38,465 bases of DNA from Pseudozyma flocculosa PF-1 (taxonomy: Eukaryota; Basidiomycota; Ustilaginomycetes; Ustilaginales; Ustilaginaceae), in contig NW_006920883.1 of the NCBI RefSeq assembly GCF_000417875.1, forward strand, positions 618,654 to 657,118. Direction: 5' to 3'. How positions within the stretch are numbered: the first letter of the stretch is position 1; each line of letters starts with the position of its first letter. The position numbers and the translations under genes are program-made. The notes beneath the pieces were generated by a model. The model did not search any database and was not told the DNA's origin. It saw nothing but the letters and a program-made list of their open reading frames with translations. This document shows, in pieces, positions 1-38,448 of the stretch.

Positions 1-3000
1 GTAAGGAGTCGACCCTTTTTCTGTTCGACCGGGACCGCCTCCGCTGCTGTTCGTCGCTCGCTCAACGGTGCCGCCGTCGCTCGCACCACGGCGGCTCGCC
101 TCCGCCTTCCGCGACGCCGGCACCGTCTCGCGCGCACCCGCATCCCTGGCCGCCGCGCTACGGCTCGCCAGCGCCGACGGATCCGTGATGTCGAGCACCG
201 ACGCCGCCGCCTCGCCCGCGTCGACGTAGCTCTGCTCCAGCCCGCCGCGCCCGCCCCTGGCTCCGCCCCTGGCGCCACCACCGCCACCGCTCGACGAGGC
301 CCTGACGCCATCCCGCCCGGCGTCCTGCCGCGCAGCCTTGCCCGGCGCAGCGCTGGCGTACGACTTGCTCGAGCTCGCCTTCATCGGCTCCAGCAGCTGC
401 ACCAGCTGGTCGTAGTCGACGCCGCCAAACGACAGGTCCGCGATCTCGGCCTTGCCCCCGTGGTTGGCGTGCGACCGTGACCCCAGGCCCGGGTGCGACA
501 CCATCTGATGCAGCAGCCGCAGCCCGCTGCCGCCCGCAGACACCAGGTCCACCTTGACCCCCTGCGTCGCCGCCAGGTAGGCGATGTCGTAGCTCAGCAT
601 CACGAGCGCCGCGCAGAAAGCCCGGGCCGCCTGCGTCCCCGGATCGGTGCGCTGCGATCGGTGGTTCGATCGGCCGCCGCTGTTGCCGGCGTCGCTGGTG
701 TCCTTGGCGGGCGGCGACGCCTCGTCAGGCTTGTCCCGGTCCCGGCCGCCAGCCTCTTTGGCAGAGGCGCCGCCAGTCAGCGTCGAGGCACGGCCCCACG
801 ACAGGTGGCTGCGCGGAGGCAGCTGGATGAACGACTCGAGCGTCGAGAGCGTCGAGGCGCCCAGGTTGAGCGTCGACTCGGCCAGGCTGCCCATGCCGCC
901 GCCCCCGCTGCTGCTGCTGCTGCTGCCGCCGTGCTCTGTCCCGGCGGGAGGCGCGCTGAGAACGGCGTAGGCGGCGCTGCTGAGATGGAGCGCCTGCTTG
1001 CTCGACCCGCCGCCGCCGTCCCACAGCGGATTGGGACGGATGCTGACCTTGCCGCCCTGGATACCGATGGCAAACGGCAGCGAGATGCCCAGGTAGCCCG
1101 TCAGCAGCTGCAGCAGGTGGACCGTGTGGGCGATGGCGCCGTTGATCGAGTCGCGTGGGAAGCGCCGCACATCGCTCGGCAGCGGCAGCACCAAGCCGGC
1201 GATCGTCCAGTCGTTGGAGCCGGGCGAAGGAGAGGTGCCAGCCGCGGCCGATGCAGCGTCGCCGCCGCTGCTGCCGCCCTTTGCGCTCGAAGACCACAGC
1301 TGACCCTCGCCGACCGTGTCCAGCAAGGTGCGGTGTCCGGCTGACGGGCTCGAAGGCGTCGCCGTTGCCGAGAAGCGGTCCGGGTCGCGGCCAAACGCAA
1401 AGGCGCCCGGCATGTAGCGCTCCGTCAGGCTCGTCGTCCGCGCTGCCAGGCTGGGCCTCCTGTTGCCTGCCGCCGCCGCCGATGACATGGCAAACAGCCC
1501 GACGTTGGCGGCCGATTGGCCCTGCTGGTGGTGGTGCTGCTGATGCTGCTTGGCGTCCGCGCCAGGCGGTGGTTGGACGGCAAAGATGGCAAAAGCCTCC
1601 TTGGCCAGGATGGCCCGCGTGCGCTGGAGCTCCTCGGATGCGCCGGCCTTTTCCGCCTCGAGGCGCCGGATGTCGCTCCGCAGCCACTCGACCAGGGCGC
1701 CTGCACCGAGGCCGGACGGGACGCCGCTGAAAAGGGGTCGAGCAGCGCCAAGCGCAGAGTCCATCGCCGTCGCAGCAGTCCCGTCGCCGTTCTGCCGTGG
1801 GTCTGCGCCCATCTGCGCCTCGTGGCGCTCCCACGTCGGGTAGATGTCGGTGGACCACGCCTGGCCGTCGTAGGCGTCGATGTTGAAGCCGTTGGCGTCG
1901 TCGCCTGGCCATGCACCGGGGCTCGGCTGTGGCCGCCAGCGATCTCCGACGCGCGCCGATCGCGGTACCGCGGTCGCCGCCTGTGCCGGAGGGTGAGCGG
2001 AGTGCGGGCCGTCGATGCTGCCTCCACCCCGGAGATTGGCCCACGCCTCGTCGAGGTTGCGACGGCGCCGCGTGACAAGTGCGCGCCGTTCTGCGAGGGC
2101 TTCTGAGCGGCTGGCCCGTTTCGCCCTGCTTTCATCGGCGATGGTGCGCAGCTCGTTGATGCGGTCGGTCAGCTGAGCAGCGCGGGCCCGCAGCTTGACA
2201 GAATTGAGAAGATCGAGGTCGGGGACAGGCGGAACGGCGACAACAAGCGCAGGCGGTACGGGTGCGACCACTGGAGGATCCGTCGCATCGCCATCTGCGA
2301 CGAGGCTGTGCCGCGGGCTGGATTCAGGCTCCTCGCCAAATGGATCTGGCAGCGCTTCGGGCGGTGGATGGAGTTGTGATGGCGGACGTCGCCTGCCGTC
2401 GTCCTCGAGGATCTTCGGAGCAGGTGTGCCACGGCTGGACGACGCGGTCTGAAGTGGCAGGGCATCGGTTTGGGGTGCCGTCGATGCTGGCGATGCGAGG
2501 TCGACATGGTGGATGCCGAGCAGGCGGGCTGCGGCGGCTTTTGCCGTGTTGCGCGCGAGCGAGAGGCGGTGCATCTCGCGGTGGTGGTCTGCGATGCGGC
2601 GTGCGATGCAGCGCTCGCAGTAGAATCTCGACTGGGGTGCGTGGCACTGCGGGCATGGCTGCGGGTGGAGGGGAGGATGGTGTGGCGACGGGATGCCTGG
2701 GAAGCCGGGCGTTACGGGAGCGGTGGCGGCATGTCGAAGCTTGGCCCTTGTTGGCTGGCTGGCGGGCGCGGACGAGGTCGAGGGGTAATGCGATGCAGGC
2801 CTTGCGCTGCCAGTGTGGTGTTGAGGGAGGTGGGCTGCCTTGCGGGTGAGGGGCGAGCGGGACGAGGACGAGCCCGAGTCCGAGGGGTAGCGATGCGCTG
2901 GTGCGTAGGTCGACGTGGCGGTGCGGGCAGCAGGGCGATTGGGGTCGTTGGCGGAGCGGAGTGACGCAGAGGTGGTAATTGCCGGTGTGCGAGAGGCGTT

Positions 3001-3129
3001 GCGGGAAGGCTGAGGAGCAGCGAGGGGCGAGCTCGAGGAGGAAGCGAGGGCTGCGCGGCGGCTGGAAGTGGAGCCTGGTCGAGAGTGGGTCTTGGGATCG
3101 AGCCGCGGCTGAGCTTGGCGGTCTGACAT
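1..3129 (-). CDS. ATG14: Atg14/UVRAG-family subunit of the autophagy PI3-kinase complex (3' part beyond window)
   Basis: An open frame of 1043 codons runs from the ATG at 3129 to the window edge with no stop; it is the first ATG after an in-frame upstream stop. Visible: a Cys cluster C159-x2-C162-x8-C171-x2-C174 (CPQC...YCERC) like the N-terminal cysteine repeats of yeast Atg14; charged, helix-prone, probably coiled-coil stretches at about residues 310-380 and 470-510; and the family core near residues 640-700 (FPRDSINGAIAHTVHLLQLL, then GYLGISLPFAIGIQG) and again near 845 (MLSYDIAYLAATQGV). Known of the family: Atg14 joins Vps34, Vps15 and Atg6/Beclin to make PI3P at the autophagosome formation site; Vps38/UVRAG is its endosomal counterpart. 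The Cys repeats favour Atg14, but Vps38 is not excluded. Low-complexity Ser/Ala/Gly insertions make it much longer than the yeast protein (344 residues, from memory). No intron is needed within the visible part. Divergent from RBX1. Confidence 0.8.
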   Translation of the reverse strand, partial: MSDRQAQPRLDPKTHSRPGSTSSRRAALASSSSSPLAAPQPSRNASRTPAITTSASLRSANDPNRPAARTATSTYAPAHRYPSDSGSSSSRSPLTRKAAHLPQHHTGSARPASHYPSTSSAPASQPTRAKLRHAATAPVTPGFPGIPSPHHPPLHPQPCPQCHAPQSRFYCERCIARRIADHHREMHRLSLARNTAKAAAARLLGIHHVDLASPASTAPQTDALPLQTASSSRGTPAPKILEDDGRRRPPSQLHPPPEALPDPFGEEPESSPRHSLVADGDATDPPVVAPVPPALVVAVPPVPDLDLLNSVKLRARAAQLTDRINELRTIADESRAKRASRSEALAERRALVTRRRRNLDEAWANLRGGGSIDGPHSAHPPAQAATAVPRSARVGDRWRPQPSPGAWPGDDANGFNIDAYDGQAWSTDIYPTWERHEAQMGADPRQNGDGTAATAMDSALGAARPLFSGVPSGLGAGALVEWLRSDIRRLEAEKAGASEELQRTRAILAKEAFAIFAVQPPPGADAKQHQQHHHQQGQSAANVGLFAMSSAAAAGNRRPSLAARTTSLTERYMPGAFAFGRDPDRFSATATPSSPSAGHRTLLDTVGEGQLWSSSAKGGSSGGDAASAAAGTSPSPGSNDWTIAGLVLPLPSDVRRFPRDSINGAIAHTVHLLQLLTGYLGISLPFAIGIQGGKVSIRPNPLWDGGGGSSKQALHLSSAAYAVLSAPPAGTEHGGSSSSSSGGGGMGSLAESTLNLGASTLSTLESFIQLPPRSHLSWGRASTLTGGASAKEAGGRDRDKPDEASPPAKDTSDAGNSGGRSNHRSQRTDPGTQAARAFCAALVMLSYDIAYLAATQGVKVDLVSAGGSGLRLLHQMVSHPGLGSRSHANHGGKAEIADLSFGGVDYDQLVQLLEPMKASSSKSYASAAPGKAARQDAGRDGVRASSSGGGGGARGGARGGRGGLEQSYVDAGEAAASVLDITDPSALASRSAAARDAGARETVPASRKAEASRRGASDGGTVERATNSSGGGPGRTEKGSTPY

Positions 3130-3919
3130 GGTGACGGCCGGCTGCAGGGCTGCCAAGACGGGCCGGGGCGAAAGACCGAGCGAGGCGAATGCCGGGCGGT
3201 CTCTGGGTCAATGAAGCGGGGGACCTGGTGCTTGGGCTGCGGGAGGGGCTGGCGGGTGGTCAATCTGGAGTGGGGGATCGGGTTGAGATGGTGCCGTCGC
3301 TGGGCGAGAGTGAGAGCATGCTTGCGCTGTGGCGTTGCGGAGCGTTGCGGTGGGTGGGCAGAATGGGCGGGCAGAGAATCGAGGGCTATGCGGTGGTCGG
3401 GTAGCTGGGTTCGGTGTGGTGAGGCTGTGCGGGCATGGAGCTCGAGGGAGGAGTTCTGGTGCGCGCGTGGGTGGTCAAGGCAGCGTTCACTGTTGAAGCG
3501 AGTGACGTGGCAGTCAGGGGCGCATGGCTAGAAGAGCGAGGGAGGATGGTGGTGGTCGACGACGACGAGGGAGCGATGAGGTGTTGCTCGCTGTCAGTCC
3601 AACGCCGTTGCGCCCGCCTTTTGACTTTGGATTTTGGGAGCGCGCAGCCCATTCCAGCCTCCACATGGCGGGCCAACACAGCGCAGCGCAGCGCTCGGGC
3701 CCGCCTGGCCGCCTGCCTGGCCTTGGTCAATCAGCGCAGCCCAGCGCAGCCCAGCTCAGCCTGGCAGCCAAACCAACGCCAGGGCAGGGCGTGATCGACT
3801 CACCTTCCTCGCCACCACCACCACCACCACCCATCCTCATCCTCTTCGCCATCCCTCACCGCACCTCGCAAACAGCCACAGCCACAAGCCACAGCCACAG
3901 CCACAATCGACAACCGACA
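3130..3919. promoter_or_regulatory. Divergent intergenic region ATG14 / RBX1
   Basis: This 790-bp stretch lies between the ATG14 and RBX1 starts, which point away from each other, so it should hold both promoters. It contains direct short repeats of GCGCAGC/CAGCCCAG type (about 3677-3765), a CCA-rich run (3817-3832) and a GCCACA repeat (about 3876-3903) directly before the RBX1 start. No TATA box or convincing gene was seen. Confidence 0.5.
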
Positions 3920-5120: not shown

Positions 5121-8100
5121 CTAGACGCCGCAGATGGCGAGGATGCGCACAAAGCCATCCTCGCTCGCGAGCGCCAGCGTGACCTCGTCGTCGCTCTGGT
5201 CCTCGAGGCGGGGAGGACGGAAGGCGAGTTCGTTGATGGACTCCTGTGCCACCTTTCCGCTCCATACTTCAGTCCATCCTTCCTTGTCGCCGTCGGAGAA
5301 GGAGGAGGAGGAGGGGGAGAGGGAGGGGGACAGGATACGAATCGACCCGTCCTCGCCTCCGATGGCCAGGACGGATCCGACGCCGAAACACACCGATGTG
5401 ACGGCGACGGGGAGCTTGATGGTCGAGAGGAGCTCGTAGGGCTTCCCCTGCCCCTCGCCCTCGCTGCCGGCCGTGTCGTTGTCGGTGTCGTTGTCGGCGG
5501 TGTTGCTCGAGGGAGAGACAGGGCTGGGAAGGAGACGCCAGATCTTGACAGTCTTGTCCCTCGATGCCGTCGCGAAGACGTGGGGGTCCGCCGCGTCGGC
5601 GGAAAAGCACACGTCCCATACGATGCGGGCGTGTGCGCGTTCGCCCGTCAGTGGGATGAAGGCTGGCGAGTCACGGGATGAGTTGGGATGCAGAGCGAGA
5701 GCGAGAGCGAGAGCGGGAGGGGAAGCAAGGACGAGACGGCGTCAGTCAGTGGCCCCCACGACGTCGCAGCATCTCGCTGCTGGCCAGCGCTGAAACGGTA
5801 CCGCCTTGATCTTCGCCACCGCCCCCACGTCACAGGGTACACTCACAGGTCTGGCCCTGGCGCAGTACACGCTCAAACACCCTCCAGCTCCGATCCTTGG
5901 ACACGCTCACGACGAAGCGCGCATTCCCGCTCCAGCGGATGCGCGACACGCTCGACTCGTGGCCCGCGAGCACGCCCACCTCTTTCCAGTTTTGCAGCCG
6001 GTCGTGCACCCGCACCACGGCGTGCTCGGCCTTGGTCGCCCGGCAGCTGCTCGCAACGTACCGCCCACCGCCCTGCGACGACGACGACAACGCCGGACTG
6101 GCAGAGAGCCAGAGCAGCTCGTAGCCGTGCCCGTACACCTTGTCCAGCTCCGGCCACAGCGTCTCGACGCTCAGCTGCTCCTCGGTCGGCGGCCGCGTCA
6201 GCACGCTCGACAGCGACTCGCGCGCCGACCCGATCGGCTGGCCGCTCGCAGACGGCTCCTCGACAATCGAGGCCGCTCCCTCGGCATCCGTCGAAAAGAT
6301 GGCGCGGTTCGACAGGCCCAGCGGCGGCACGCTCGCGCCCACCGGCCGCGCCGAGAGGTCGGCCTCGCCGTCGTTGCCAATGTCGTCGTGGCCGCCCGCT
6401 GTCGACGCATCCGAACCGTCCTTGCCAGGTCGCGCAGCGTCGTCCGGCGCAAACGACGCGACAAGACGGTCGAGCTGGTGCTGCCTCGAGCGGAGCAGCG
6501 TCGCCAGCGCGTGCGCCCGCCGCGCACCCTGCGCGCGGATCCACTTGCGGATGGCCGTCGAGCCGACCTTGCTCTCGGCCAGCGCCTTTGCGTCGCCGCG
6601 CAGGTCCGTCTCGCCCTGGCTGCCGAGCACGCCAATCACCCAGTCGTCGAGCGGCCGCAGCCCCTTTTCGCGCCGCATCTTGTCGATGAACTCGGCGCCG
6701 GACCGCGTCTCGTCGGTCAGCACCAGCGCCTCGACGTCGGCGTCGGTGCCGGCGGGGCCCGCCACGTCCGACAGCTCCACCACCTCCTGCCTCAGCGGCC
6801 CGAACGCCAGGCGGAATAGGCGCAGGAAGGCGTCGACCCGCGCGCGCCGCTGCGGCAGCGTCTCGAGCAGGTCGGCGTTGCTCTTCTTGGCGATCATGGC
6901 ATCGCTCGTCACGCCGACAATCAGCCGCTCCGACGCCACCAGCGCCGCCATGCTCAGCAAGATCTTGTGTCCGGCGTGGAGGTGGTCGAACGTGCCCCCG
7001 AGCGCGGCGACTCGATACGTGCGGAAGCCCTTGCTGTCGGCATCGTCGTCTTCGTCAGTCGTGGTCGAGGCATCCGCGGCGGCAGTGGCAGCCTCGTTGG
7101 AGCCGCCGTCCTTGGCAGCGGCGATGGTCGCAAATCTGACCCGCGCATTGTCCAGTGCCGGGCGCAGCGAGCCGATCGACGCGGCGTCGACCGAGACGCT
7201 GTCCGAAGCCGCCGCCAGCCGGGGCAGCATCGTGCCCAGCCGGCTCGACGGCACGAGCAGCACATTGATGTCGACAAACAGCTTGCCGCGCTCGACGGCC
7301 ACCGCCCAGGCCTGCGCGTACATCCACTTGAGGTACGACTCGAGACGCCGGAACGAGTAGCGCCGCGCGTTGGCATTGTCGGCCAGGTCCTCGAAGCGGT
7401 CCGAGGCAACGACGGCCGTCAGGCTCCCCTCGTCGCCGTCCTGGCCGCTGCAGACTCGCTCCGCCAGCTGCCGCATCAGGTCGCCGTGGCGCGCGGTGCA
7501 GGCGGCCAAGTCGCCCGCATCGTCGCAAAGCGCCAGCAGGCAGCGCCGATCCCGCCCGCGGGCAGCGCGCAGGCCGAGCCTGGACTCATCCTCGGTCCCG
7601 ATCGAGGCGCATGCCAGGCCGCGCCTGCCGACGCTGCCGACGAAGCCGCGCGGCGCCGCAAACACGCGGACCACCTTTTCGTCGGCGGCCGAGGCGAACG
7701 CGAGCCGGTCGAGCCAGGAGACGGCGTGCAGGTCGTAACCGTGCGATTGAGGGCGCGCCACCTCGTGCCAGGTCGACGCGGCACCTTCGTTGTTGGGCTT
7801 GGCGTGCAGGCGCGTCGTCTGGTCGACCGAGCAGCTTAGCAGGTACTCACCGCAAGGCTCCCACGCCACGCTCTTGGCTGGACCAAAGTGACCCGTTACC
7901 GGGTTGGCGATCCGCCACTGAGGAAGCAGCGAGGGCAGCGTCCCGGTCGCCGATGAGGAACTCGACGACGGGGCATCGAGTCGCCAGATGTGGGTGCCTC
8001 CGCCCCAGCCATGCGCCATGACGGCCTCAAAGCCTTCGCTGTCGGCGCCGTCGGCTCTGTCGGCGCTGCTGCCAGACGGTTTCCAGAGCGCGCCAAAGAA

Positions 8101-9597
8101 GCCGAGGTTGCTGGCACCGCCGACCTCGCCAAAGCGCTGGCTTGGCAGCCAGATGGAACTGGCGATGTGATGCGCCGAGGGCCCGCGGGCCCGCTTGGCC
8201 CCTCCCGTCGAGACGAGCGAGTGGTCAAACAGAGGGAACGGCGAGGTCGGTGCGGCAGGCGATGGCGGTGCAGCTGGCACGGTGCCCGTGGGCGTCCAGA
8301 GGATGAGGCTGTTGTCGGCCGACGAGGTGAGGAGCGCTGCCGGCTGGACCAAGGCGGGCCCTGCGACGCCATCTGCGCTGTCGCTCTTGTGCGACGGCAC
8401 CGCCGGATGCCACCTGACCCCGGTGACCCAGTTGTCGTGGCCGATGAGGAGGGCGTCGAAGGTGACGGCCCAGCGGTCGGCAGCGTGGCCATCGCCGCCG
8501 CCGCCGGCAGCGTCAAAGTACTGGGCCTTTGTTGAGATCTCGCCGTCTGCCTTTGTCATGTCGCCCTCGATCTTGGACACCATGGCCTCGAAGTCGTCGG
8601 CTCTGAGCGGCTGATCCGAGGCTGTTTGGCGTTGGCCGTCGCCGCCGTCGAGCTGGTCGTCGTCGGTGGCGGCCCTGGCAATCTTCCACAGCCTGACGCT
8701 GCTGTCCTGCGAGCCGCTGGCTAGCATGATGATGTCCGAGACGGCGGTGTGGCAAAAGTCGATCGACTTGACCCAGTCCTCGTGGCCCTCGAGCGCGAGC
8801 TTGTGGACGAAGGTGGGTCGGGCGGCGGTGGTTGAGGCGAGGTCTGCGGCGTAGAGGTCGATTTTGCGCGTGGTGGTGGCGACGGCCATGAGGAGCTTAC
8901 CAGGGGGCTGTGGAGAGGACGAGGAGGTCGCGGTGGATGCGGGAAGGGGCAGCAGTGCGACGTCGAGCGGGAAGCGGCCGTTGAGGTCGATGGTCTGGGC
9001 CAGATCGAGCTGGTCGTTGGCGTCGTCGTTGCCGTCGCCAGAGGTGCGAAGGGTCCAGACCTTGAGCAGACCATCGGATGCGCCCGTGACGATGACCTCG
9101 GAGGGATAGGCGAAGGAGGAGAGGTCTGCAGTGGGTCTGAGCACGCCGATGGCCGAGATGGAGCCGGAGTGAGCGTCGCTGACGGTTGCGGTGCGGGTCC
9201 AACCGGGAGCGAGGGATGGTGCGTCTATGGAGGGGCGATGCTTCCACACGGCGAATGCGCCATCACCTGCGCCGGCTACGATGCTTGGCGTGGGTTGTTG
9301 TGATGCATGGTTTGCATGGTCGTGAGGTGGTGGCGGTGCGCTGAACTTGAGGGACGAGATTGGCTTTGTGAAGGGGGTGACGATGAGCTGGTGGATCTGG
9401 GTGGATTGGGTGTGGGCGGGGCGGGACCAGACTGCGATGGACCTGTGGGCTGCGAATGCGATGGTGCTGTGGGGAGCGTCTGCCCAGTCTGCGACGTGGT
9501 TGAGGCGGTTGACGGCGGCAGAGGTGTATACGTTGGATGCGGTGGCCCGGGGTGGTGGTTGCCGGTGGTGCGGCTGGGTTGGTAATGTGCCGGCCAT
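5121..9597 (-). CDS. ELP2: Elongator subunit Elp2 (WD40) with an in-frame internal phosphopantetheine adenylyltransferase (Cab4-like PPAT) domain
   Basis: Exon 1 is 9597-5847 and exon 2 is 5662-5121; the intron has a GTGAGT donor and CAG acceptor, and the predicted product is 1430 residues. The N-terminus (VYTSAAVNRLNHVADW) and WD repeats such as GHEDWVKSIDF and GHDNWVTGVRWHP are Elp2. The hallmark VPPLGLSNRAIF lies near residue 1090, and the C-terminal repeats (HARIVWDVCFS, FATASRDKTVKIW) are in exon 2. Between VRVFAAPRGFV (about residue 641) and VPPLGLSNRA sits about 435 residues with a complete fungal PPAT. Its N-terminal part is about 680-858. Its catalytic part is about 860-1030, with GGTFDHLHAGHKILLS (HxGH = H874-H877) and STAIR (1013-1017). 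PPAT converts 4'-phosphopantetheine plus ATP to dephospho-CoA. Elp2 scaffolds Elongator, which modifies wobble uridines of tRNA. There is no dephospho-CoA kinase domain. The frame stays open through both junctions and I saw no GTRAGT donor around the upstream one, so fusion is likelier than a nested gene. Confidence 0.9.
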
Positions 9598-10024: not shown

Positions 10025-12326
10025 ATGGCCACGCATTCCAGCAACGACTCGAGCGGCAGCAGCAACACCGCCCGCAGCCGCTACCTCTCCATCATCTCGC
10101 CCGTCGCCTACAGCGCCTCGTCGTGCGGCTACTGCCCTCCCCCCTCGTCGGGCAGACGCTCCGCCGCAAAGACCTCGCAACACTACGGCATATGGGCCCA
10201 CCGAATCAGCCCGCACTACTACCAGCGCCTCATCGACGCAGGATGGCGCAGGTCCGGCGACTACATCTACAAGCCCGACCTCGACCGCACCTGCTGCCCG
10301 CAGATCCCCATCCGACTCGACGCCGCCACCTTTGCGCCCGCAAAGCGCCACAAGAGGGCGCTCACCAACCTCCTCTTCCACGTCAGAGGCAACTCTACAA
10401 AGCCCGCCAGGTGGAAGGGCAGATGGAGCAGGGGCCGCGACTGGCACCTCCAACGCAGGTGGGACCTCGTCGAGTGGTCACCCCACCCCGTCACCACCGT
10501 CGACAAGGGAAAGCAGAGGCAGCACAGCGACGACCACAACGACAACCACGACAACACCAGCCAAGATGCAGCCTGGGCCAACACCGTCGCAGGACCAAAG
10601 ACCAAGAGGCTCGAGGTACGTCTCCCTCCGCGTCTGGCTGGCCAGGGACATCGAGCCATCGGCAGCACCCACTCACCGAAGTCCATGCGCCCTCCTCCCC
10701 CCTCGCCCCTCAGACCACGCTGCGCCTCTCGTCGTCGACCGACGAAAAGTACCGCCTCTTTCGACGATACCAGTCACGCGTCCACGGCGAGCCAGACGAC
10801 AAGATCAGCTCGCGCAAAGGCTGGGAACGCTTCCTCGTCGACACCAGCCTCATCCCCGTCTGGCCGGCCAGCGGAAAGATGCTCGACGACCGCCAAGAGG
10901 CACGCTGGCGCGCAGGCGAGCTCGCAGATCCATACGACCCAGACCAGCCCATACCCTATGGCTGCTACCATCAAGAGTACCGACGTGAGTGGCCGTGGCC
11001 GCGTTCATCGTGGCGGCCCCAAAGACGCTGGTTATCCGCCACCACTGCCAAGTTAGTCTAAACACCGCCAATTTCACTCACCTGCTGCCTCCTCTGTCCT
11101 CGCTTCCCATGCCGCCGCCGCAGTCGACGGCCAGCTCATCGCCGTGGGCGTGCTCGACGTATTACCCGCCTGCATCAGCAGCGTCTACCTCTTCTACGAC
11201 CCAGACTTTGACCATCTCGAGCTCGGCAAGATCAGCGCCCTCCGCGAAATCGGCCTCACCCGCCAGCTCTCGCGCAAGCCTGGCATGGAGTCGATACGCC
11301 ACTACTACCTCGGTGAGTGGCCCGCGCGCTGGTCGGCTCTCCTCTTGTGCCGACGAGGCTCGCACCATGCCGGCCAAGCGTCGCGTCGAGCCGAGCCGAG
11401 GCTGACCGCAGCTGTCCCGCCCCTGGACCTCTCACCGACGCCGCTGTCGCCGCCAGGCTTCTACATCCACAACTGCCAGAAGATGCGCTACAAGGCCGAG
11501 TATCGCCCCTGCGAGCTCCTCGACTGCGTGAGTGGACGGCCCCAGGTTCCTTGGCTGCGGCCGCGGTTGTCGATGGGCGAGGGCGAGGCAAGAGCGAGAC
11601 ACCCAGCTGATCCGCGCTTGACTGTGCCCCCTCACCCTGTAGGCGGCCGACGAGTGGCGTGCCTTCTCCGACATTCGGCCCGCGCTCGATGCGGGCGTGC
11701 ACCACAGCTTCGAAAAGTGGCAGGCCAGGTCGGGAGCACCGGCGGTGCCGAGTCACACGGCGGCGGACGCAGCACAGCGGTCGAGCAATGACAGCAGCAG
11801 CGTCGAGGGTGATGAGCAAGCTGGCAAAGAGAACGGCGACGACGATGACGGCGACGGCGAAGAGGAGGAGGAGCGGCGGATCCCCACCGAGCCCGCGCCA
11901 CCGCCGGGCATGCTGGATCCGACCGAGATGCTGGACGGCCTTCGAACGCTCGCCTCGAGCCGCGGCGGAAACCCGGCATCCGCCGCCGCGTCAAGTGGAA
12001 GCCTCGAGGTGTTGGGCCGCGCGCTAACTCTCAACGCGAGCCGGCAGTTCGAAGGCATCCAGCCGCTTCTCGTGAGTTGAGCCCCGCTCCCGTCTGCCCC
12101 GATGGTCGTGGCACCCTCGACGTACACCACCGACCGACGGACTGACTGATTCACGACCTCTCGCACGCTCCTTTTGAACGCTCGCGCCGCCCTGCTGCAG
12201 ATGTCGACGTTCGCGCGGGCCTACCTCGAGACGGGGCAGAGCAAGGAGATGGTGCAGGCCGTTGAGTGTCTCGCTGCGCTGGGCGGCGACGAGGACCTGT
12301 GCGGATCCTGCGTGTTGTTCCTGTAG
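10025..12326 (+). CDS. ATE1: Arginyl-tRNA-protein transferase (N-degron pathway)
   Basis: Six exons: 10025-10615, 10714-10984, 11124-11312, 11457-11527, 11643-12071 and 12201-12326. All have GT...AG introns with phases that fit, giving 558 residues (yeast Ate1 is about 500). The N-terminal domain shows SSCGYC (C34, C37), YGIWAHRISPHYYQRLID, GWRRSGDYIYKP and TCCP (C90, C91), the conserved Cys pairs of the family. The C-terminal domain shows YRLFRRYQSRVHG, the exon-junction sequence EYRLDGQLIAVGVLDVLP, then SSVYLFYDPDF and GFYIHNCQKMRYKAEYRP. Known role: it transfers Arg from Arg-tRNA to N-terminal Asp, Glu or oxidised Cys, creating an N-degron read by UBR-type E3 ligases. A strongly acidic, low-complexity insert (within exon 5, about 11810-11880) precedes the C-terminal helix. 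The start was chosen as the first ATG compatible with the Ate1 N-terminus. It converges on SEM1, 202 bp away. Confidence 0.95.
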
Positions 12327-18530: not shown

Positions 18531-19875
18531 TCAACGAGCCCAGAGGCTGACAAACATGGCGCTGAGCCACTGGAGCACACCGAGGGCCGGGGCAAAGGCC
18601 GGTTCCGCGATACCCAGCACGCTCGGCGTCGACGGCGGCGCGAGCGGAAGACCGCCAAACGATCCGCCCGACGCTGCAAAGCTACTGAAACCCGACATGC
18701 CAACGCCGCCGCCACCGCCGCCGCCGTACAGCCCACCGAAACCGGCAAGCGGGTTGGAGGAGAGCGGCGTGCCGTGGCCGCCCGGTCCAGAGTCGCCGGG
18801 CATCTCGGTGTCGCCCGTGTTGGGCGCGAAAAAGAAGCCCGCCACCAGCACGACGTACGACAGGATGCAGATGCTGCCGCGGTAGTAGTTGCTCCTCGCC
18901 TCGATGTAGGTGTAGGTGAGCAGGAAGACGGAAAAGATGATGGCGATGACGTCCCACCGCGGGAAGATGAGGGTGAAGCTCTGGTGGACGACGTTCTCGG
19001 GCACGTCGTTGACGCCGTTGTAGTAGGCCGAGAAGGCCACCATGGCCGGGATCTGGATCAGGCACACCTGGAGCGCGTACGCCGACCCGATCTCCATCGA
19101 GAGCGCAATGTTGCCGTTGATGGCAAACGACATGGCGTTCATGAACTCGGTCGTGTTGGGCACCAGCGCAAACAAGGTGATGCCGAGGAACTTTTCGTCG
19201 ATGCCCGAGCCGTCGAGGACGACGTCGACGACGTCGACGAGGATCTCTGCAACGATGGCGTACAGCACCGTGCAGCCCAGCAGCACGCTCACCGAGGTGC
19301 CACGGCTCCACGACGGCGCATCGTGGCCGCCGTGGCCGCCATCGTCGTCGCCGCCGCCCGACTCGTGCTGCAGCTGGCCCGCGGNNNNNNNNNNNNNNNN
19401 NNNNNNNNNNNNNNNNNNNNNNNNNNNNNNNNNNNNNNNNNNNNNNNNNNNNNNNNNNNNNNNNNNNNNNNNNNNNNNNNNNNNNNNNNNNNNNNNNNNN
19501 NNNNNNNNNNNNNNNNNNNNNNNNNNNNNNNNNNNNNNNNNNNNNNNNNNNNNNNNNNNNNNNNNNNNNNNNNNNNNNNNNNNNNNNNNNNNNNNNNNNN
19601 NNNNNNNNNNNNNNNNNNNNNNNNNNNNNNNNNNNNNCGTCGGCCTGCGGGTACGACTGCCTGGCGCCGCCGCCGGCGGCAGCGGCAGCGCGCTGCTCGC
19701 GGTCCTGCTGCAGCGCGGTGTGGAAGGCGCTGGCGGTGAGGGCGACGGCGCGCTCGTACTCTTCGCGGCTGAACTGCTCCGGCACGCGCAGCTGCGATCC
19801 CGCGTCGTTGTTGGCCGCTTCGGATGCCGTCCTGCCGGTGGCCGATCTGCCATGGCCGTGGCCGGCATCGCCGCG

Positions 19876-19918
<43 letters not shown>

Positions 19919-22900
19919 GGAGGACCGCCCTTGATGGTCCCCTGCCCGGCGCTGCCACCATAGCTGATCTGGCTCGGCGGACGCGCCTGCTGGCTGCCCT
20001 GGCTCTGACCTTGAGTGTGACCGCCGTGCTGGCCGGCGCCGCCACTGCTGTGGATGGTGGGGAGGAGCTGCTGCATGACCGAGGGCGGCACGAGGCGCTT
20101 GTAGATCGAGGCTCGCTGCGCCGAGGGCAGCGTAGCGACGTTGTGGGCCGTCGTGACGCCGCCGTGCTGGGCCTGGTGCTGGTGCTGGTGCTGCACCGGC
20201 TGGCCGGGCTGCGGGTTCTGCCAGATCTGCGAAGCGTGGGTGCGCAGCGAGAACCACAGGCCGATGCCGTACGACAGCACCAGGATGACGGTGCAGGTGT
20301 ACATGAGGCCGCGCACGTTTTGCTGGAAAAAGGGGTCGGTGGCCGGGTCGACGTGCTCGTAAAAGCACCGCTTGCACGTCCACGTGTCGCCGGGCTGCGA
20401 GCCGCCGCGCGGGCAGCCCTCGCAGGTGAGCTGGAAGGTGCCGTAGATCTGGTAGAAGAGCGTCGGCGTCAGGATGCCAATGATGGCCATGATGAGCATG
20501 GTGCTGGTGACGCCGGCCGAGCGGGCGTTGAAGCGCTGCTCCTTGCGGCGGGTGGCGCCCGAGCACATCGAGAGGCCGGGCATCAGGAGCACGCCGGCCA
20601 GGATGGATCCGATCAGCGACCCCTCGACCAGCCGCGCCTTTTGCTGGGTGAGGGCGATGGCATAGAGGATGATCTCGATGATGGAGCCGAACGTGGCGTT
20701 GATGACGGCGCCCATGCCGATGCTGCTCTGGGCGCTGATGCTCGCGACGGCCATGCCGATAAAGTACGACAGCGGGATGACGGACGCCAGCGCCAGCAGG
20801 AAGATGACGCCCTGGCCGCTGATGAGGCCCAGGAAGCCGCCATGGATGCCGTGGCGCTCGACGTAAGCCTCGATGACGAAAAAGTCAAAGATGGTGAAGA
20901 AGACGAGCGGCAGCGTGTTGACAAAGAGGATGTTGACACCGCCCACGGTGTACTTGTAGTACTGGGAGCCGACGGCGCGGTAGGTGCACAGGAGGATCTT
21001 GCTGCGCCGGTGCACCTTGGCCTTGCCCTTGCCCTGGCTGAACGATTTGGAGCGCGGCGCGATCTGGCCCGGCTTGAGCGGCAGGAAGAGGTTCCTGGCC
21101 GCGCCCCCCGCGCCACCCTTCTTGCCGTTGCCGCCGTCGGCCCGGTCGCCGACGTCGTCCTCGTCGTCGCCCTCGTCGCCGCTGGGCCGCTCGATGCCTG
21201 GGGCAGAGCGGAAGTGGAGCGCGAGAGGACGCATGGCGAGGTTCTTGATCAGCGCCCAGGTCAGTTTGGCCATCGGGATGGAGAACACGCCGCCCCAGCA
21301 CGCGAGGCAGACGAGGCCCATGAGCGGAAAGACGACCAGGCCGTAGACGAGCCCGAATGCCAGCTTGCCGCCGGCGCGGCGCGCCACGCCCACCTCGTTG
21401 CCGTGGTCGTCGTGCACGTAGCCGTAGATGGCCGACTCGGCCTCGATGCGCTCCTGTTCTGTGAAGTTGGACAGGGCATCGGCGCCGTCCTCGCCCAGGT
21501 CGTCGACGGCGCCGTAGCCGCCGCCAAGCTTCGACTTGCCCTTGAGCGAAGTCGTCTCCCCGGCATCGCCATCGGCCTTGCCGTCGGCACGCACGCCGTA
21601 ATCCTCGGCGTGCGAGGTACGGCTCGACTCGCCGCTATGGGAGCCCGAGGCCAGCGAGCGGCGTGCAGCGGCATCGCTGCCTCCCGAGGAGCTCTCATCA
21701 GCAGAGCCGCTCTGGCCCGCGGCGCCCGTGGTGGAAGCTGCCACAGCATCGCTGGGTCGGAGCGTGTCGGCAGAACGGTTCTCGGACGCCTGCCTCTGCT
21801 GCTGCTGCTCGAAGGTCTGGTCGACCGCCGACGGCGGCACCGTCTCGTAGGCTCCGTCGGACGCCTGGCGAGCCTGGGCTCGGAACTCGCCGGCCGGCAG
21901 GCTGCGGTCCGCACTTTCCGGGTCCACCTCGACCTCGACGTACTTGCCAAACGGCCAGAAGAGGTAGCCGCCGAGCTCCCAGATGACGCGGGCGTAGCGC
22001 GAACCGCCGACCGGCACAAAGTTGATGAGGATGGCGCACACGTAGCACACGGCCGCGAGCCACCAGCCGAAGAAGACCGTCCAGAGGATGTTGCCGGGCA
22101 GCAGGTGGCGCTCGGCGGCCGCGCTGGGGATCAGGTGGAGCGCCGACTCGGCATTGCGCGTGACCGAGCGCGACTTCTTGTATAGCGCGGGCTTCCAGAT
22201 CGGCAGGCCAAAGGGGTGTTCGACGTTGATGGCGTCCTGCCGGTCCTTGAGCGTGTACTCGACGTCGTCTCCGTCCTCGAGGTCCTCGTCGTCGTCGTCG
22301 TCGTCTTCGTCGTCGAGCTGGCCCTCCTCCCCGCCGTCCTGGCGCTGGCGTCGGCCGGTGGGCGTGCCATCACCGCCGTCTGCTCCGTCGTAGTCGCCAT
22401 AGCCGCGATCCTCGCCGTTGTGCTCGTCGTCGGTCTCGCGCTGGCCCCGGCGGTCGGCCAGGCTGACAATCGTATCGCGCTCCTCGTCGTCGTCATCGCC
22501 ACCCTCGTGCTCGCCCTCGCCAGATTCGCGGACGCTACCGGCCACGCTCGACCCGGCATCGGTCGACGCCTTGCCCGCGGCCGATCGTGGACGCAAGCTT
22601 TCGGCGAAGACGTCGAGGCTGGCCGCCTGCTGACCTCCGCCGCCGTAGTAGGTGGTGCGAGCGCCGCTCGGTGTTCCCTGCAAGGAAGCCTGGTACTGTT
22701 GCTGCTGCTGCTGCTGCTGCTGCCCGTACGAAGAAGTGGTGGCATAGCTCGCGCTCGGCCTGCGGATATGGGCGTGAGGCGACGGGTAGCTGGGCGCGTA
22801 GCTGGAGCGCGGCCCGCCTCCAGGGCTGGCAAGGGGCGGCTGGGAGCCCGGCGACAGCGCGCCGTGCTGAAGGCTCTGGAAGCCGGCCGATGGCGGCAGC

Positions 22901-24078
22901 ATGATGGTCGAGGGCCTGCCTGCGCGATCGAGGCGCGGCGAGGGCGAGACCGGTCTGCCCGCCGAGAAGCCCGAGCCCGGGCCCAGACGGGGCGAGCCGG
23001 GCGACGTGACCGACTGCGCCTGCGACGGCACCTGCGACTGGCGGTTGCGTTCGCGCTCGGCCTGCTTCTCGCGCTTCTTGCGGAGCGCCTTTTCGCGCTG
23101 GCGGGCCTTCATCCGGCGGCGGACGAGCTCCTCGCCGCGGTCGTGGATCTCGACCTCGTCGTCCTCTTCGTCGAGGGGACCGTAGCGGTCGTCAGTGTCG
23201 TCGCCGTCGTCGTTGGCGTAGCCTCGGTCGCCGCCGCGGGGTGCTTGGCTGTGTCGGCGAGTGCGGCTGCTGTCGCGGGTCGTGTTGGTCGCCGAGGGAC
23301 GCCGTGTGCCGCCCTTGTTGCCGGTGCCCTGCTGCGCAGCCGGCGAGGCAGTGTCGAGGACGTATCGCCCAGCGCCTCCTCCGCCGGTGCCTCCTCCGCC
23401 TCCGCTGCGGCTGCCAGCTGCGCTGACCTGGCGTGCACCATGATCGGGCATTCTACCCCTACTGCGGCTGGTGACTGACCGCGACATGGCCTCCTGGTCG
23501 TCCTCGTTGCCGGAGCTGTACTCGGAGACGGAGGCGCCCGAGACGGTGTCAAAGTCGGAGGGTGCATAGCTGACGGAGCGCTGCGACTGGGACGTGTCGC
23601 GGTCCGGGTTCTGCGGCCGGGAGAGGGCCGGCCTGGGCGTGCCTGGGCCTGCACCCCCAGCCGACGAGGGCGGGGGCGGCTGACCTCGGCCAATCGTAGC
23701 AACGTGGCTGCTGTCCTCGAGGCTAGGGTCTCGATAGACGCGCTGGACGGCTGATCCGGGGCGGCTCTGCTCGGAGGCGGACGAGGCTGGGTGGATGGAG
23801 CGCTGCCACGCTTCGAGGTCGAGGGGCGAGGACTGCGCGGCGGCGGGTGCGTCGACGCTTGCGGCGGTTGCTGGGGCGTTGCGGACGGTGCCCGAAACTG
23901 CCGCGGCGGCAGTCGATGACGATGCGGTGGATGCATGGCCGAGGCCCTGGATGTGGCTCTGGGTAGGCGTGGTGCTGAGCGAGGCCTCTTGGGAGTGGAA
24001 GCTGTCGCTGCTGTCGGTGCGGTGGCGCTGGGCAGGGGGTGGCGCTGCGCCCGGCGGTATGTCTCTGTTGTCGCTCAT
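18531..24078 (-). CDS. VNX1: Vnx1/CAX-type vacuolar cation/H+ exchanger (interrupted by assembly gap)
   Basis: The frame from the ATG at 24078 is open to the gap at 19637 (about 1480 codons); past the gap the same protein continues to the TGA at 18531 (about 283 residues). Residues 1 to about 640 are disordered and Ser/Gln-rich. Two YccF-like hydrophobic segments follow (about 658-690, PGNILWTVFFGWWLAAV; and 913-955). The exchanger core starts near 1023, with repeat alpha-1 GAVINATFGSIIEIILYAIA (about 1122-1143) and, after the gap, alpha-2 PNTTEFMNAMSFAINGNIAL and MEIGSAYALQV. A CEGC...CKRC pair (about 1216-1240) and a poly-Gln run (about 1390) lie in loops. This order matches yeast Vnx1, a vacuolar Na+/K+/H+ (weakly Ca2+) antiporter; a Ca2+/H+ role is possible. 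A probable 5'-UTR intron (donor 24212, acceptor about 24101-24106) supports this start. The frame does not carry through the gap as drawn (253 N), so gap length is approximate. Confidence 0.88.
19385..19637. other. Assembly gap (253 N)
   Basis: A run of 253 undetermined bases lies inside the exchanger gene, between the long loop and the second exchanger repeat. The flanking coding frames differ by one base if 253 is taken literally, so the true length is not 253 or it includes an intron. Confidence 0.98.
19877..19918 (-). repeat. CAG/CTG trinucleotide repeat coding poly-Gln in the exchanger
   Basis: Fourteen TGC units on the + strand are read on the - strand as a run of about 13 Gln codons in the loop between exchanger halves. 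The tract is pure and so probably length-polymorphic. Confidence 0.9.
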
Positions 24079-25414
24079 TGCGGCAGAGGCAGCAGTGGAT
24101 CTGGACTGTACGCTCGCGGGGGGTGTAACAGGGGAGTGAATGGGTTTAGGAGCAAGGTCAAGCGGACGACGGCGGCGGCGATGGCCGATGTCGGGCTGGC
24201 GAACGCACTCACCTGTCCTGGACCTGTTGGGCTGCAGCCTCAGCCTGGACCTCGAGAGAGGGCGTCGAGGTGGACGAGGGGTCGGATCCGTCGATGAAGT
24301 GGGTTGAAAAGGAGCAGCTTGCGATGCGTGGGTGGCGGTGGTGGTCGATGGTGGCCGTGGTGGTGGTGGTGGTGAGCGCAGGAAGCAGGTGCAGAGTGCC
24401 AAACGAGGTGATGGCTGTGGAGACGAGACGAGGCTCAGGGGGTGGATGAGGGCAGAGAGGGGGGCGCTGCTCGACTCGAGGAGGCCAAGACGAGGTGGGG
24501 TCGGCCAACAAGCAAGCCAGCCAGCCAAGGACAAGCTAGGCGGCGGGCAAGGGGCACAAAAGGGCCTTTCGTCGTCGATGGATCGCAGAAAGTCAGGGGC
24601 CGCCTGCTTTGCCTTGCCCTGCCTTGCCTGCCGTTGCTTGGCCTACCTGGCCTCGGTTGGACTGCGCCATTTTCGACGCCTTCGCCTTCACCTCGCCCGG
24701 CCCTCTGCCGGTTCGCTGCATGCGTGCCTGTCTGCTTCCCCTGGTCTGGCTGCCTGCCCGCCTGGTCGGCCGGCTGTGGGGGCTGCGAGTCGAAAATCCC
24801 TCGCCTGCGCGCGTGCGTGCGTGCGTGTTGTGTTGTGTTGCTCTCCAGCCCAGCCCCGCCCAGCCCCCAGGCCAGGCCACGCCATCCGAAATCTCCCCTA
24901 GGGGGCTGGATCTGCACAGGCCAGCCCGGCGCAGCCAGGGCTGCAGGGTGATGATACCCTGCCTGCCTGCCTGCCCAGGCCTGGCCCAGACGAGCGAGGC
25001 GGCCCCACCAGCCAAGCCATCTTGCTTGAGCTCGAGACCAACACCGACTTCCGACGCCACCCGCCCTAGCTTCTTTTCCACTCCGCCGCTGCCGCCGGCG
25101 TAGAGGCAAACTTCTACCCTCTTGCCTCCGCGCCCGCGACGCCGCCTTATCCCGTCGTCACCCAACATATTGACACGCGGCACCCGCGAGGACGGCCTTG
25201 GGAGAGAGGGGTCAGGGGTAGCTCGATGAATTGTCCAGAAAGGCGGAAATAATAATGGTGAAATGGGGAGCTGAGAAGCTGCCGGCTGTGGAGACCAGGT
25301 GGCTGGCATCATGAAACGGGGCCGCTGGCAATAAGCGCAATGCGATACGATGCTGGAGCAGCAAAGAGGATGCCGGATAGGGAGGGAGAGAGAGCAACGA
25401 CGGGCTGCCCCACG
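24079..25414. promoter_or_regulatory. Upstream region and probable 5'-UTR intron of the exchanger gene
   Basis: This 1336-bp region separates two - strand genes. A consensus donor (GTGAGT at 24212-24207) and acceptors (AG at 24106 or 24101) predict a 5'-UTR intron of about 107-112 bp ending about 23-28 bp before the ATG. Further upstream are short tandem tracts: GCGTGCGTGCGTG then TGTTG units (about 24815-24840) and CCTGCCTGCCTGCC (about 24958-24975). The - strand frame open to 24534 upstream of the ATG is low-complexity and probably not translated. Confidence 0.5.
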
Positions 25415-36090: not shown

Positions 36091-38448
36091 ATGGACCCCG
36101 AACACCAGGCGCAGCGTCACGAGGAGCGCCTATCGGCACGCACCGGCGTCGCACTCGAATCAGGCTCAGCATCCCCTTACCCGCCCACCCTGCGCAGAAC
36201 CATCGACCACGGTGCATCACCGCTACAGGAGTCATCCCCGCCCTCTCCCCTCGACGGCAGCGACGGCCAAGGCGGCAGCATCTCCGGGTCCTCATCTTCG
36301 GCCTCGCTCCAGGATCACTCCATGGATCTCGCCGCAGAAGAAGGTAGAGACGGACACCACCACCAGCAGCCGCAGCAGCACCACCACGCCGCCGCATCAG
36401 GCCCAGCATCGACCAGCGCAGCCGCGGCAGCACCGGCAGCCCCGCAGCAGTCGCCGTCAGACGCTGCCTCTCTGCCACAAGAGACCCCATCGCAACCAAC
36501 GCCGCCGCCGCCGCCGCACGCACCGCCGGCCGAGCAGTCGGTCGACGATGCCACGGCTGCGACAGCCCCGACCGTAGCCGACGCGGCAGAAGACCCGCCC
36601 GAAGTAGCTCCCACCACGACGACAACCTCAGCGCCATCTGCAGGCCAGGTCGACGCTCCAGCTCAGCAAGGCCGGGACGAAGCAGCTCCATCACCCGCGC
36701 AGACCGGCCTAGCACACCTGCTCACCTCGGTGCTCCACAGCATGCGCAGCATGGTACCCGGCGGCGACGCATCACAGCCGCAGCCGCAGCAGCAGCAGCC
36801 GGACGAACGACCCGCGGGCAACGCCACCTCCGGCACCACTGCATCCGAGACCGGCGCAGAAGGTACGGCGCCCCAGCAAGGGCAGGCGGCCGCACCCGGG
36901 CCCCCTCCCGTCCTCTACTTCCGCATGCCCTTCAACGGCCCCGACGGCAACCCGGCAATGCTCGCCTTCCATCCGACACCTCTGCCGCACGCACCCGCGA
37001 ATCGACAAGCGCCGGCGCAGGGACAGCAGCAGGGCCAGGCAGGTCAGCAGAACCAAGAACAAGCACAGGGTCACCCAGCAACCAACGCTACGCCGGCACC
37101 CGGCATGGAGGACACGGGGTCGATGCCGCACCCCGCTGGCCACGTCCCACGTGCGCCGCTCTTTGTCCCGCTCGGAGCATCGCCGCTCCCCTTCAGCTTC
37201 ATCTACGACGCACCCACCGCCACGGCCTGGCCCATCGCCCACGTCGTCCCAGGTGTCCCTCCGGGCGGACCTGGACCCGACGCTTCAGCGGCGGGAGGCG
37301 CAGGTGCGGCAGCAGAAGACCAGCAGCCTCGACTCGTGGCCGGCCCGCCCTTCCGCATCCTCCTCGACCTGCACTTTGTCCCGAACGGCGCGCCGCCCGA
37401 GCCGGAGCGGCCGGATCCGGAAAAGGCCAAGGCGTACGTCAAGGCTCTCGAGCGCGCCGACGCCGAGCTGCGGTCGAGGATGGCCCGGCTGCACATGGGC
37501 GAGGTCGGATCGTTTGCCGGCGGGGGCGGCAGCGATGGCGACGGCGAAGGCGATGCGCTGCTGGGCTGCGGCGTGTGCCTGGATAACTACGAGGAAGAGG
37601 ACCGCCCCGAGTGGATTGGCGGCGAGAGGAGCGAGGATGAGGCCGTGGTGGCGCTGCCGTGTCCCGGCCACCACAGCCTGCACTCTGGCTGCCTGCGCGA
37701 CTGGCTCGCCAAGACGCCGCCCAGCCAGTGGACGTGTCCCTTCTGCCGGGCCTCGCTCGACGCCGCGCACCCGACGCCAACGCTCGCCACGGCGTCGTCT
37801 GGGAGCAAGCTGGCGGGCCAAGAGGCGGCGGCAGCCTCGACCCGGACGACGCTGCGAGAGGAGGTGCGGCGGCGCGAGCGCCAGCGCGGGTGGCGGTGCG
37901 ACGCGCCCGCCTGCCTGCCGCGCTACCCGGCTCCCGTCCAGTCGACGAGCGGCGCGGATCGCCGACACGCTGCGCTCAACGACGAGACCGAGGAGATGTC
38001 GACGCGCCTGGTCGACCTCGCGCCGTGCCACCATCAGGTTCATCTCGACTGCCTGTGTACCAGCATGCGCATCGAGTCCGGCGATGTCGGGTGCGACTTC
38101 CAGGCCGACGACGAGGGGCTCGAGGACGACGGGGACATCGGCGAAGACGAAGAGGAGCAACGGAATTCGGCGGGAGGCGAAGAGGTCGAAGAGGTCGAAG
38201 AAGTCGAGGAGGAGACGACGGGCAAGTGGGTCAGCTGTCCCGCCTGCCGCAAGGAAACGTGGGCGCGCCTGCCCATCCGTCGACGTCCGCGCAGCGTCCG
38301 TCCGCAGGGGGACGGCGACGACACCAAGACGAAGGCGAACGCGGTGGCGGCGGAGGAGGGAGAGCCGTCGTCGATCAGCATCATCGCGGGGGGCGAGAGC
38401 GAGGGCGAGGGCAAGGATGAGGCAGCGCCCGCCCCCGTTTCCGCTTGA
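36091..38448 (+). CDS. RING-H2 finger protein with a second irregular RING-like zinc site (putative E3 ubiquitin ligase)
   Basis: A single frame of 785 residues. Residues 1 to about 270 are low complexity (Ser, Pro, Ala, Gln, with HHHQQPQQHHH). A more ordered Pro-rich section (about 275-440) contains VLYFRMPFNGPDGNP and PFRILLDLHFVP. A RING-H2 domain follows with C493-x2-C496, C524, H528, H531, C534 and C549-x2-C552 (GCGVCLDNY, PCPGHHSLHSGCLRDWL, WTCPFC). A second cluster, C603-x4-C608, C646, H648, H651, C654 and C716-x2-C719 (RCDAPAC, APCHHQVHLDCLC, WVSCPACRKE), has RING order but a wide first pair and an acidic 61-residue insertion before the last pair. Known: RING domains recruit E2 enzymes. 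Substrate and pathway are unknown. No membrane segment or signal peptide. The start is the first ATG in frame. Confidence 0.85.
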   Translation: MDPEHQAQRHEERLSARTGVALESGSASPYPPTLRRTIDHGASPLQESSPPSPLDGSDGQGGSISGSSSSASLQDHSMDLAAEEGRDGHHHQQPQQHHHAAASGPASTSAAAAAPAAPQQSPSDAASLPQETPSQPTPPPPPHAPPAEQSVDDATAATAPTVADAAEDPPEVAPTTTTTSAPSAGQVDAPAQQGRDEAAPSPAQTGLAHLLTSVLHSMRSMVPGGDASQPQPQQQQPDERPAGNATSGTTASETGAEGTAPQQGQAAAPGPPPVLYFRMPFNGPDGNPAMLAFHPTPLPHAPANRQAPAQGQQQGQAGQQNQEQAQGHPATNATPAPGMEDTGSMPHPAGHVPRAPLFVPLGASPLPFSFIYDAPTATAWPIAHVVPGVPPGGPGPDASAAGGAGAAAEDQQPRLVAGPPFRILLDLHFVPNGAPPEPERPDPEKAKAYVKALERADAELRSRMARLHMGEVGSFAGGGGSDGDGEGDALLGCGVCLDNYEEEDRPEWIGGERSEDEAVVALPCPGHHSLHSGCLRDWLAKTPPSQWTCPFCRASLDAAHPTPTLATASSGSKLAGQEAAAASTRTTLREEVRRRERQRGWRCDAPACLPRYPAPVQSTSGADRRHAALNDETEEMSTRLVDLAPCHHQVHLDCLCTSMRIESGDVGCDFQADDEGLEDDGDIGEDEEEQRNSAGGEEVEEVEEVEEETTGKWVSCPACRKETWARLPIRRRPRSVRPQGDGDDTKTKANAVAAEEGEPSSISIIAGGESEGEGKDEAAPAPVSA

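Follow-up and report, generated by a model that had tools for sequence, protein, structure and literature searches.

A predicted fusion of phosphopantetheine adenylyltransferase with the Elongator subunit Elp2 in Pseudozyma flocculosa and other Ustilaginomycotina

The ELP2 gene of Pseudozyma flocculosa PF-1 lies on the minus strand of a 38,465-nucleotide stretch of contig NW_006920883.1 (hereafter the window; G+C content 66%), and its reading frame contains a second coding region that resembles phosphopantetheine adenylyltransferase (PPAT). PPAT carries out step four of coenzyme A (CoA) synthesis, in which 4'-phosphopantetheine and ATP give dephospho-CoA. The original prediction, which was made from the nucleotide sequence alone, described one uninterrupted frame that is completed in a second exon, and this description holds. 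Exon 1 (9597-5847) runs for 1250 codons without a stop, the other two frames carry 18 and 9 stops over the same interval, and the predicted splicing to exon 2 gives a protein of 1430 residues. The four motifs that had been named (GGTFDHLHAGHKILLS, VEALVLTDET, STAIR and VPPLGLSNRA) are all located in this frame, and the insert, put at about 435 residues, measures 432 (residues 655-1086). Third codon positions have a GC fraction of 0.80-0.98 per 50 codons throughout the insert, which fits the coding sequence expected here. The deposited protein (P0001, named 'related to ELP2') has 1366 residues, 64 fewer than our spliced reading. Its model omits part of exon 2 though the genomic frame stays open there, and the shortfall is probably an extra intron that was called wrongly.

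The insert exhibits the features of a complete PPAT. It matches CTP_transf_like (PF01467) at residues 866-924 with 31.4 bits (cut-off 21) and the solved PPAT 3do8 with an E value of 1.9e-9, and both HxGH and KxxSTxIR, which we take to be the catalytic motifs of PPAT, are present. For comparative analysis, inserts from 30 of the 44 fused proteins described below were aligned with 107 free PPATs (five of them from Tilletia), the latter being those with 290-440 residues among the best 120 of 171 matches to a free-PPAT search; the other 14 fused proteins, which are near-duplicate, incomplete or probably contaminant, were left out of alignments and trees. The 102 free PPATs from outside Tilletia define 49 columns with conservation of 98% or more, of which 34 are retained in 29 or all 30 of the fused proteins. 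Residues G867-H874, G876-K878, K1010, S1013, I1016 and R1017 are found in all 30. The distance from the start of the insert to the conserved Tyr760 is 76-105 residues in the fused proteins, and the equivalent distance in free PPATs is 78-89 residues in Tilletia and 65-102 in the central 80% of the others (lowest value 43, highest at least 125). Because these distances resemble one another, the PPAT frame appears to have gone in whole, including its N-terminal domain.

The PPAT within Elp2 is the only one found in the genome. Searches of the 23-Mb genome with the insert and with Elp2 each detect one locus, and a free PPAT from Tilletia controversa recovers the same locus as the insert (E 5.4e-55) and nothing else in the genome below 0.1. 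A PF01467 search lists two loci, the second of which, judging from its motif, is presumably a choline-phosphate cytidylyltransferase. Matches to dephospho-CoA kinase (CoaE) are located on another contig (G000:C4:440332-440987) and none falls in the window gene; a fusion of the COASY type, in which PPAT and this kinase share one protein, was rejected for this reason. Genes for Elp1, Elp3 and Elp4 are present in the genome, and the searches with PF09807 (ELP6) and PF03630 (PanK) gave no match but are uninformative, their controls being silent too. The CoA pathway needs a PPAT, and the absence of any other match argues against a dead enzyme that is retained as a structural part. We regard such a dead insert as extremely unlikely because the catalytic motifs are intact in 30/30 fused proteins and the catalytic core is more conserved than Elp2 in all seven comparisons made (52-68% versus 42-62% identity). 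PPAT activity of the insert is predicted.

The sequence on either side of the insert corresponds to Elp2, with two WD40 propellers in the Elp2 arrangement. WD40-type Pfam matches flank the insert on both sides, the best being PF00400 at residues 1205-1241, and further matches of this type at 267-307 and 574-647 score below their own family cut-offs. Human Elp2 (chain 8ptx_B) aligns at residues 480-654 and 1083-1243 with an E value of 2.9e-65, skipping the middle, and the break in the human numbering falls between 472 and 492; another Elp2 chain, 8avg_B, aligns to residues 480-655. PPAT thereby falls within the second propeller's linker, immediately before the GASVPPLGLSN motif, where eight unfused Elp2 proteins have only 19-31 residues. 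The insertion site is approximately 10 residues after Arg644, the equivalent of human R462. According to PMC8113450, human ELP2 H206 and R462 are residues at the Elp3 interface. In a pattern search that tolerated one mismatch, the equivalent His and Arg were present in 37/37 fused proteins examined, of 44 in total.

Structure prediction had been proposed as a means to establish whether the propeller tolerates the insertion. An alignment-free prediction for the fused protein P0042 reached a pLDDT of only 34.5 and was discarded, and an alignment-based model of the fused protein P0168 from Malassezia cuniculi was used instead. This model is confident and retains the predicted Elp2 fold around the insert, and its fold-search lists are occupied by propellers. 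Thus, the Pfam matches, the split Elp2 alignment, the linker comparison and the P0168 model all agree with the earlier proposal that a complete PPAT has been inserted into a loop of the second Elp2 propeller.

The same arrangement recurs widely. When the insert was used as a query against long proteins only, 49 matches were obtained, of which 43 have an Elp2 landmark adjoining PPAT; landmarks are located on both sides in 38 of the 43 (patterns with two mismatches tolerated). The 42 Elp2-flanked proteins other than that of P. flocculosa match the insert with E values from 1.2e-101 to 6.7e-33, indicating that the arrangement is not due to chance. P0168, recovered by an Elp2 profile search, is the 44th fused protein, and five fragments of fused genes (P0050, P0058, P0173, P0174 and P0179) were left out of the count. 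Carriers include Kalmanozyma, Ustilago, Pseudozyma hubeiensis, Sporisorium, Testicularia, Violaceomyces, Tilletiaria, Parajaminaea, Jaminaea, Microstroma, Exobasidium and Malassezia. Those whose taxonomy was looked up represent three classes, namely Ustilaginomycetes (Violaceomycetales), Exobasidiomycetes (Georgefischeriales, Exobasidiales and Microstromatales) and Malasseziomycetes. A search of relatives for the same domain order, as had been recommended, yields 44 fused proteins, and the fusion extends over three fungal classes. One fusion is filed under the fern Adiantum nelumboides (P0037). Over 487 residues it shares 63% identity with the fused protein P0032, and fungal contamination is its most likely source.

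An error of assembly or gene modelling that joined two genes is a conceivable source of such a frame, and P0044 and P0048, apparently gene models from single species, do have PPAT attached to unrelated proteins. However, PPAT is located inside rather than beside Elp2, and the insertion site is identical in 12/12 aligned fused proteins. We consider the probability of such an error to be negligible, and because the fusion recurs in many species it is excluded as a refutation of the original prediction. Several public records of fused proteins carry Elp2 names together with PF01467, and the Elp2-PPAT domain order is thus already implicit in public annotation. A search of the open-licence literature on Elongator, Elp2, PPAT, CoA synthase and Ustilaginomycotina fusions, which covered listings and the openings of abstracts, gave no description of a fusion between Elp2 or Elongator and PPAT. 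In PMC7924180, Elongator and CoA-enzyme terms occur only in separate references, and in PMC13315578, CoA synthase appears only in a reference on another enzyme.

Another possibility is that PPAT is produced separately, either from an internal start or transcript as a nested gene or by being spliced from the ELP2 message. At least one Met is present between the start of the insert and the catalytic motif in 28/30 fused proteins, such that a truncated catalytic product could in principle start inside the insert, although the remaining two lack any such Met. In contrast, no Met occurs between the insert start and Tyr760 in 17/30 proteins, and upstream of GGTFDHLH no column has Met in more than 7/30. 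The insert is also in the same frame as its host and carries no stop. Exon 1 has only two sites of the GTRNGT form, the only form scanned (7850 and 6061), and neither is at a junction, which argues against the removal of PPAT from the message. A nested gene therefore seems very unlikely overall, although the scattered Met residues could still allow a truncated internal product.

Several observations weigh against our reading of the locus and should be considered together. The NCBIfam PPAT model PRK00777 matches residues 862-988 (E 2.7e-25) with 89.2 bits, below its curated cut-off of 104, in a library made for bacterial and archaeal annotation. Fifteen of the 49 conserved PPAT columns are more variable in the fused forms, and the whole insert, including linkers and the N-terminal domain, is less conserved than Elp2 in five of seven comparisons (40-51% versus 42-62%). 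The PF01467 search probably misses other nucleotidyltransferases, and the single PPAT copy consequently rests on the queries with the insert and with the T. controversa PPAT. Finally, Tilletia does not carry the fusion but has free PPATs of 344-364 residues (P0051-P0055). Despite these points, the locus very probably encodes one bifunctional protein, an Elp2 of two propellers whose second-propeller linker holds a whole PPAT with intact motifs, and the spliced message would be translated as a single chain. Coordinates of these features and of neighbouring frames are listed in Table 1.

Table 1. Features of the fused gene and of neighbouring frames (window coordinates)
Feature	Position	Strand	Details and basis
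Exon 1, Elp2 and insert	9597-5847	minus	Open frame, 1250 codons plus 1 nt, no stop
Elp2 part before insert (first propeller and start of second)	7636..9597	minus	Residues 1-654; WD40-type matches, Elp2 chains
Arg644 (R462 in human ELP2), at contact with Elp3 radical-SAM domain	7666..7668	minus	Alignment and PMC8113450
Insert, predicted complete PPAT with short linkers	6340..7635	minus	Residues 655-1086
PPAT nucleotide-binding motif GGTFDHLHAGHK	6964..6999	minus	Residues 867-878; all but A875 in 30/30 fused
Second PPAT motif KVGSTAIR	6547..6570	minus	Residues 1010-1017; K, S, I, R in 30/30 fused, T in 29/30
Elp2 part after insert, exon 1	5847..6339	minus	Residues 1087-1250 plus 1 nt
Putative intron, GTGAGT...CGCCAG	5846-5663	minus	184 nt; sequence only; exon 2 beyond it matches WD40
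Exon 2, last Elp2 WD40 repeats and stop codon	5662-5121	minus	WD40 match
ATG14/Vps38-like frame	4-3156		
Frame with arginine-tRNA-protein transferase C-terminal domain	11144-11788		
Frame of 1950 residues with YccF and Na/Ca-exchanger domains	18685-24534		
RING-finger frame	36091-38445		

A run of 253 N is located at window positions 19385-19637, outside the Elp2-PPAT gene. The six matches to the insert that lack an Elp2 landmark by patterns (P0044-P0049) include five with other Pfam domains. In P0046, P0047 and P0049 (895-962 residues), PPAT is joined with a PF15612 domain, a recurrent combination that may merit attention. In P0048, from Termitomyces, PPAT follows a PF05183 domain, which we take to be an RNA-dependent RNA polymerase, and in P0044, from a Microbotryomycetes species, it is joined with PF00795 and PF00153 domains.

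The exception presented by Tilletia bears on the origin of the fusion. Its unfused Elp2 proteins have 893-985 residues (P0169-P0172) with a linker of 23-31 residues. According to NCBI taxonomy, this genus belongs to Exobasidiomycetes, the same class as the fused Tilletiaria, and it is nested within the fused group in the Elp2, PPAT and concatenated trees. A single fused clade without Tilletia is not rejected by the approximately unbiased (AU) test, with p values of 0.102 (Elp2), 0.072 (PPAT) and 0.142 (concatenated). A single insertion early in Ustilaginomycotina, with the free gene then lost, is most likely, and Tilletia probably split the fusion again, so that one gain and one later split are favoured. 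Besides Tilletia, no Ustilaginomycotina with separate genes is named among the matches listed. Neither Moniliella nor Wallemia is named among the free-PPAT or Elp2 matches listed, most of which are nameless. The Elp2 profile search covers the best 120 of 352 matches, and unfused Elp2 proteins of other basidiomycetes are under-sampled because bacterial WD40 proteins filled these matches. The name 'Elongator subunit elp2' is attached to two free PPATs of Tilletia horrida (P0051 and P0054, with 358 and 364 residues), presumably since fusions rank first among their database matches.

Gene fusions usually bring together enzymes from the same pathway or components of the same complex. The simplest consequence of this fusion is that the amount and location of PPAT are tied to Elp2. 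CoA synthesis should pass through the ELP2 gene product because no other PPAT was found in the genome. The Elp2 part should still join Elp1 and Elp3, and one PPAT would then hang on each Elongator lobe, near the Elp2-Elp3 contact. Only if fused Elp2 still assembles with these partners, which is likely, would dephospho-CoA synthesis be located at Elongator, and its product would pass to the kinase encoded elsewhere.

Two explanations for the persistence of the fusion can be weighed. The fusion might be kept since PPAT on Elongator links CoA supply or sensing to the acetyl-CoA-dependent modification of wobble uridines. A single insertion site across several orders, intact catalytic motifs, and the closeness of the site to an Arg whose human equivalent contacts Elp3 are consistent with such a role. 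However, dephospho-CoA is two steps from the acetyl-CoA used by Elongator, the kinase is encoded apart, Tilletia manages with separate genes, and once no free gene is left, long conservation would be expected just as much. We regard this functional explanation as possible but rather unlikely. Alternatively, a chance insertion into a tolerant linker might have been followed by loss of the free gene, with reversal requiring two steps and the two activities remaining independent. In unfused proteins the linker is short and variable, the insert itself ranges from 337 to 432 residues in 30 fused proteins, the P0168 model keeps the predicted Elp2 fold around the insert, and Tilletia may have reverted, although it is the only such case named. 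We lean to this passive tethering, with linked expression, because of the distance of the product from acetyl-CoA and the unfused state of Tilletia, and consider it slightly on the probable side. A direct link from CoA supply to tRNA modification is conceivable but as yet without support. It is doubtful that the Ustilaginomycotina Elongator doubles as a CoA-synthesis station; if it did, CoA production would hinge on the tRNA-modifying machine and signal back to it, and one essential protein would couple translation to the CoA level.

An enzyme that is essential in yeast is here housed by a subunit of the tRNA-modifying Elongator complex, at one site and in three fungal classes. Two basic processes for which cells normally use separate proteins thus seem to share one molecule in many smuts and related fungi. 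ELP2 should accordingly be essential in these fungi, with the amount of PPAT following that of Elp2. Fused lineages and Tilletia provide a natural experiment on the interplay of CoA metabolism and wobble-uridine modification. The fusion also explains failed searches for a free PPAT in such genomes, as well as database names that mix both genes.

Compared with yeast and human Elp2 (PDB 8asw_B and 8ptx_B), the fused protein retains both propellers, the Elp3-contacting His and Arg, and the GAxVPxLGLSN motif; it differs in that the equivalent human residues (472 to 492) are joined by approximately 19 residues with no enzyme between them. Free fungal PPATs of the Cab4 type, such as those of Tilletia, share the N-terminal domain, nucleotidyltransferase core and catalytic motifs but have a gene of their own. 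The sharpest departure from them is at residue 961, which is Thr in 30/30 fused proteins and 5/5 Tilletia PPATs and Ser in 102/102 other free PPATs. In yeast, CAB1-CAB5 are essential, Cab4 and Cab5 are monofunctional, and Cab3 scaffolds a complex of CoA-synthesizing proteins (PMC8494682). PPAT thus works within a larger assembly there too, but the CoA enzymes are held by Cab3, and the available portion of that source makes no mention of Elongator. Mammals have a bifunctional CoA synthase (PMC8494682). In human COASY, too, PPAT forms a domain within a larger protein, but its partner is the next enzyme of the pathway, whereas here the host is a tRNA-modification subunit into which PPAT has been inserted, with the kinase encoded elsewhere.
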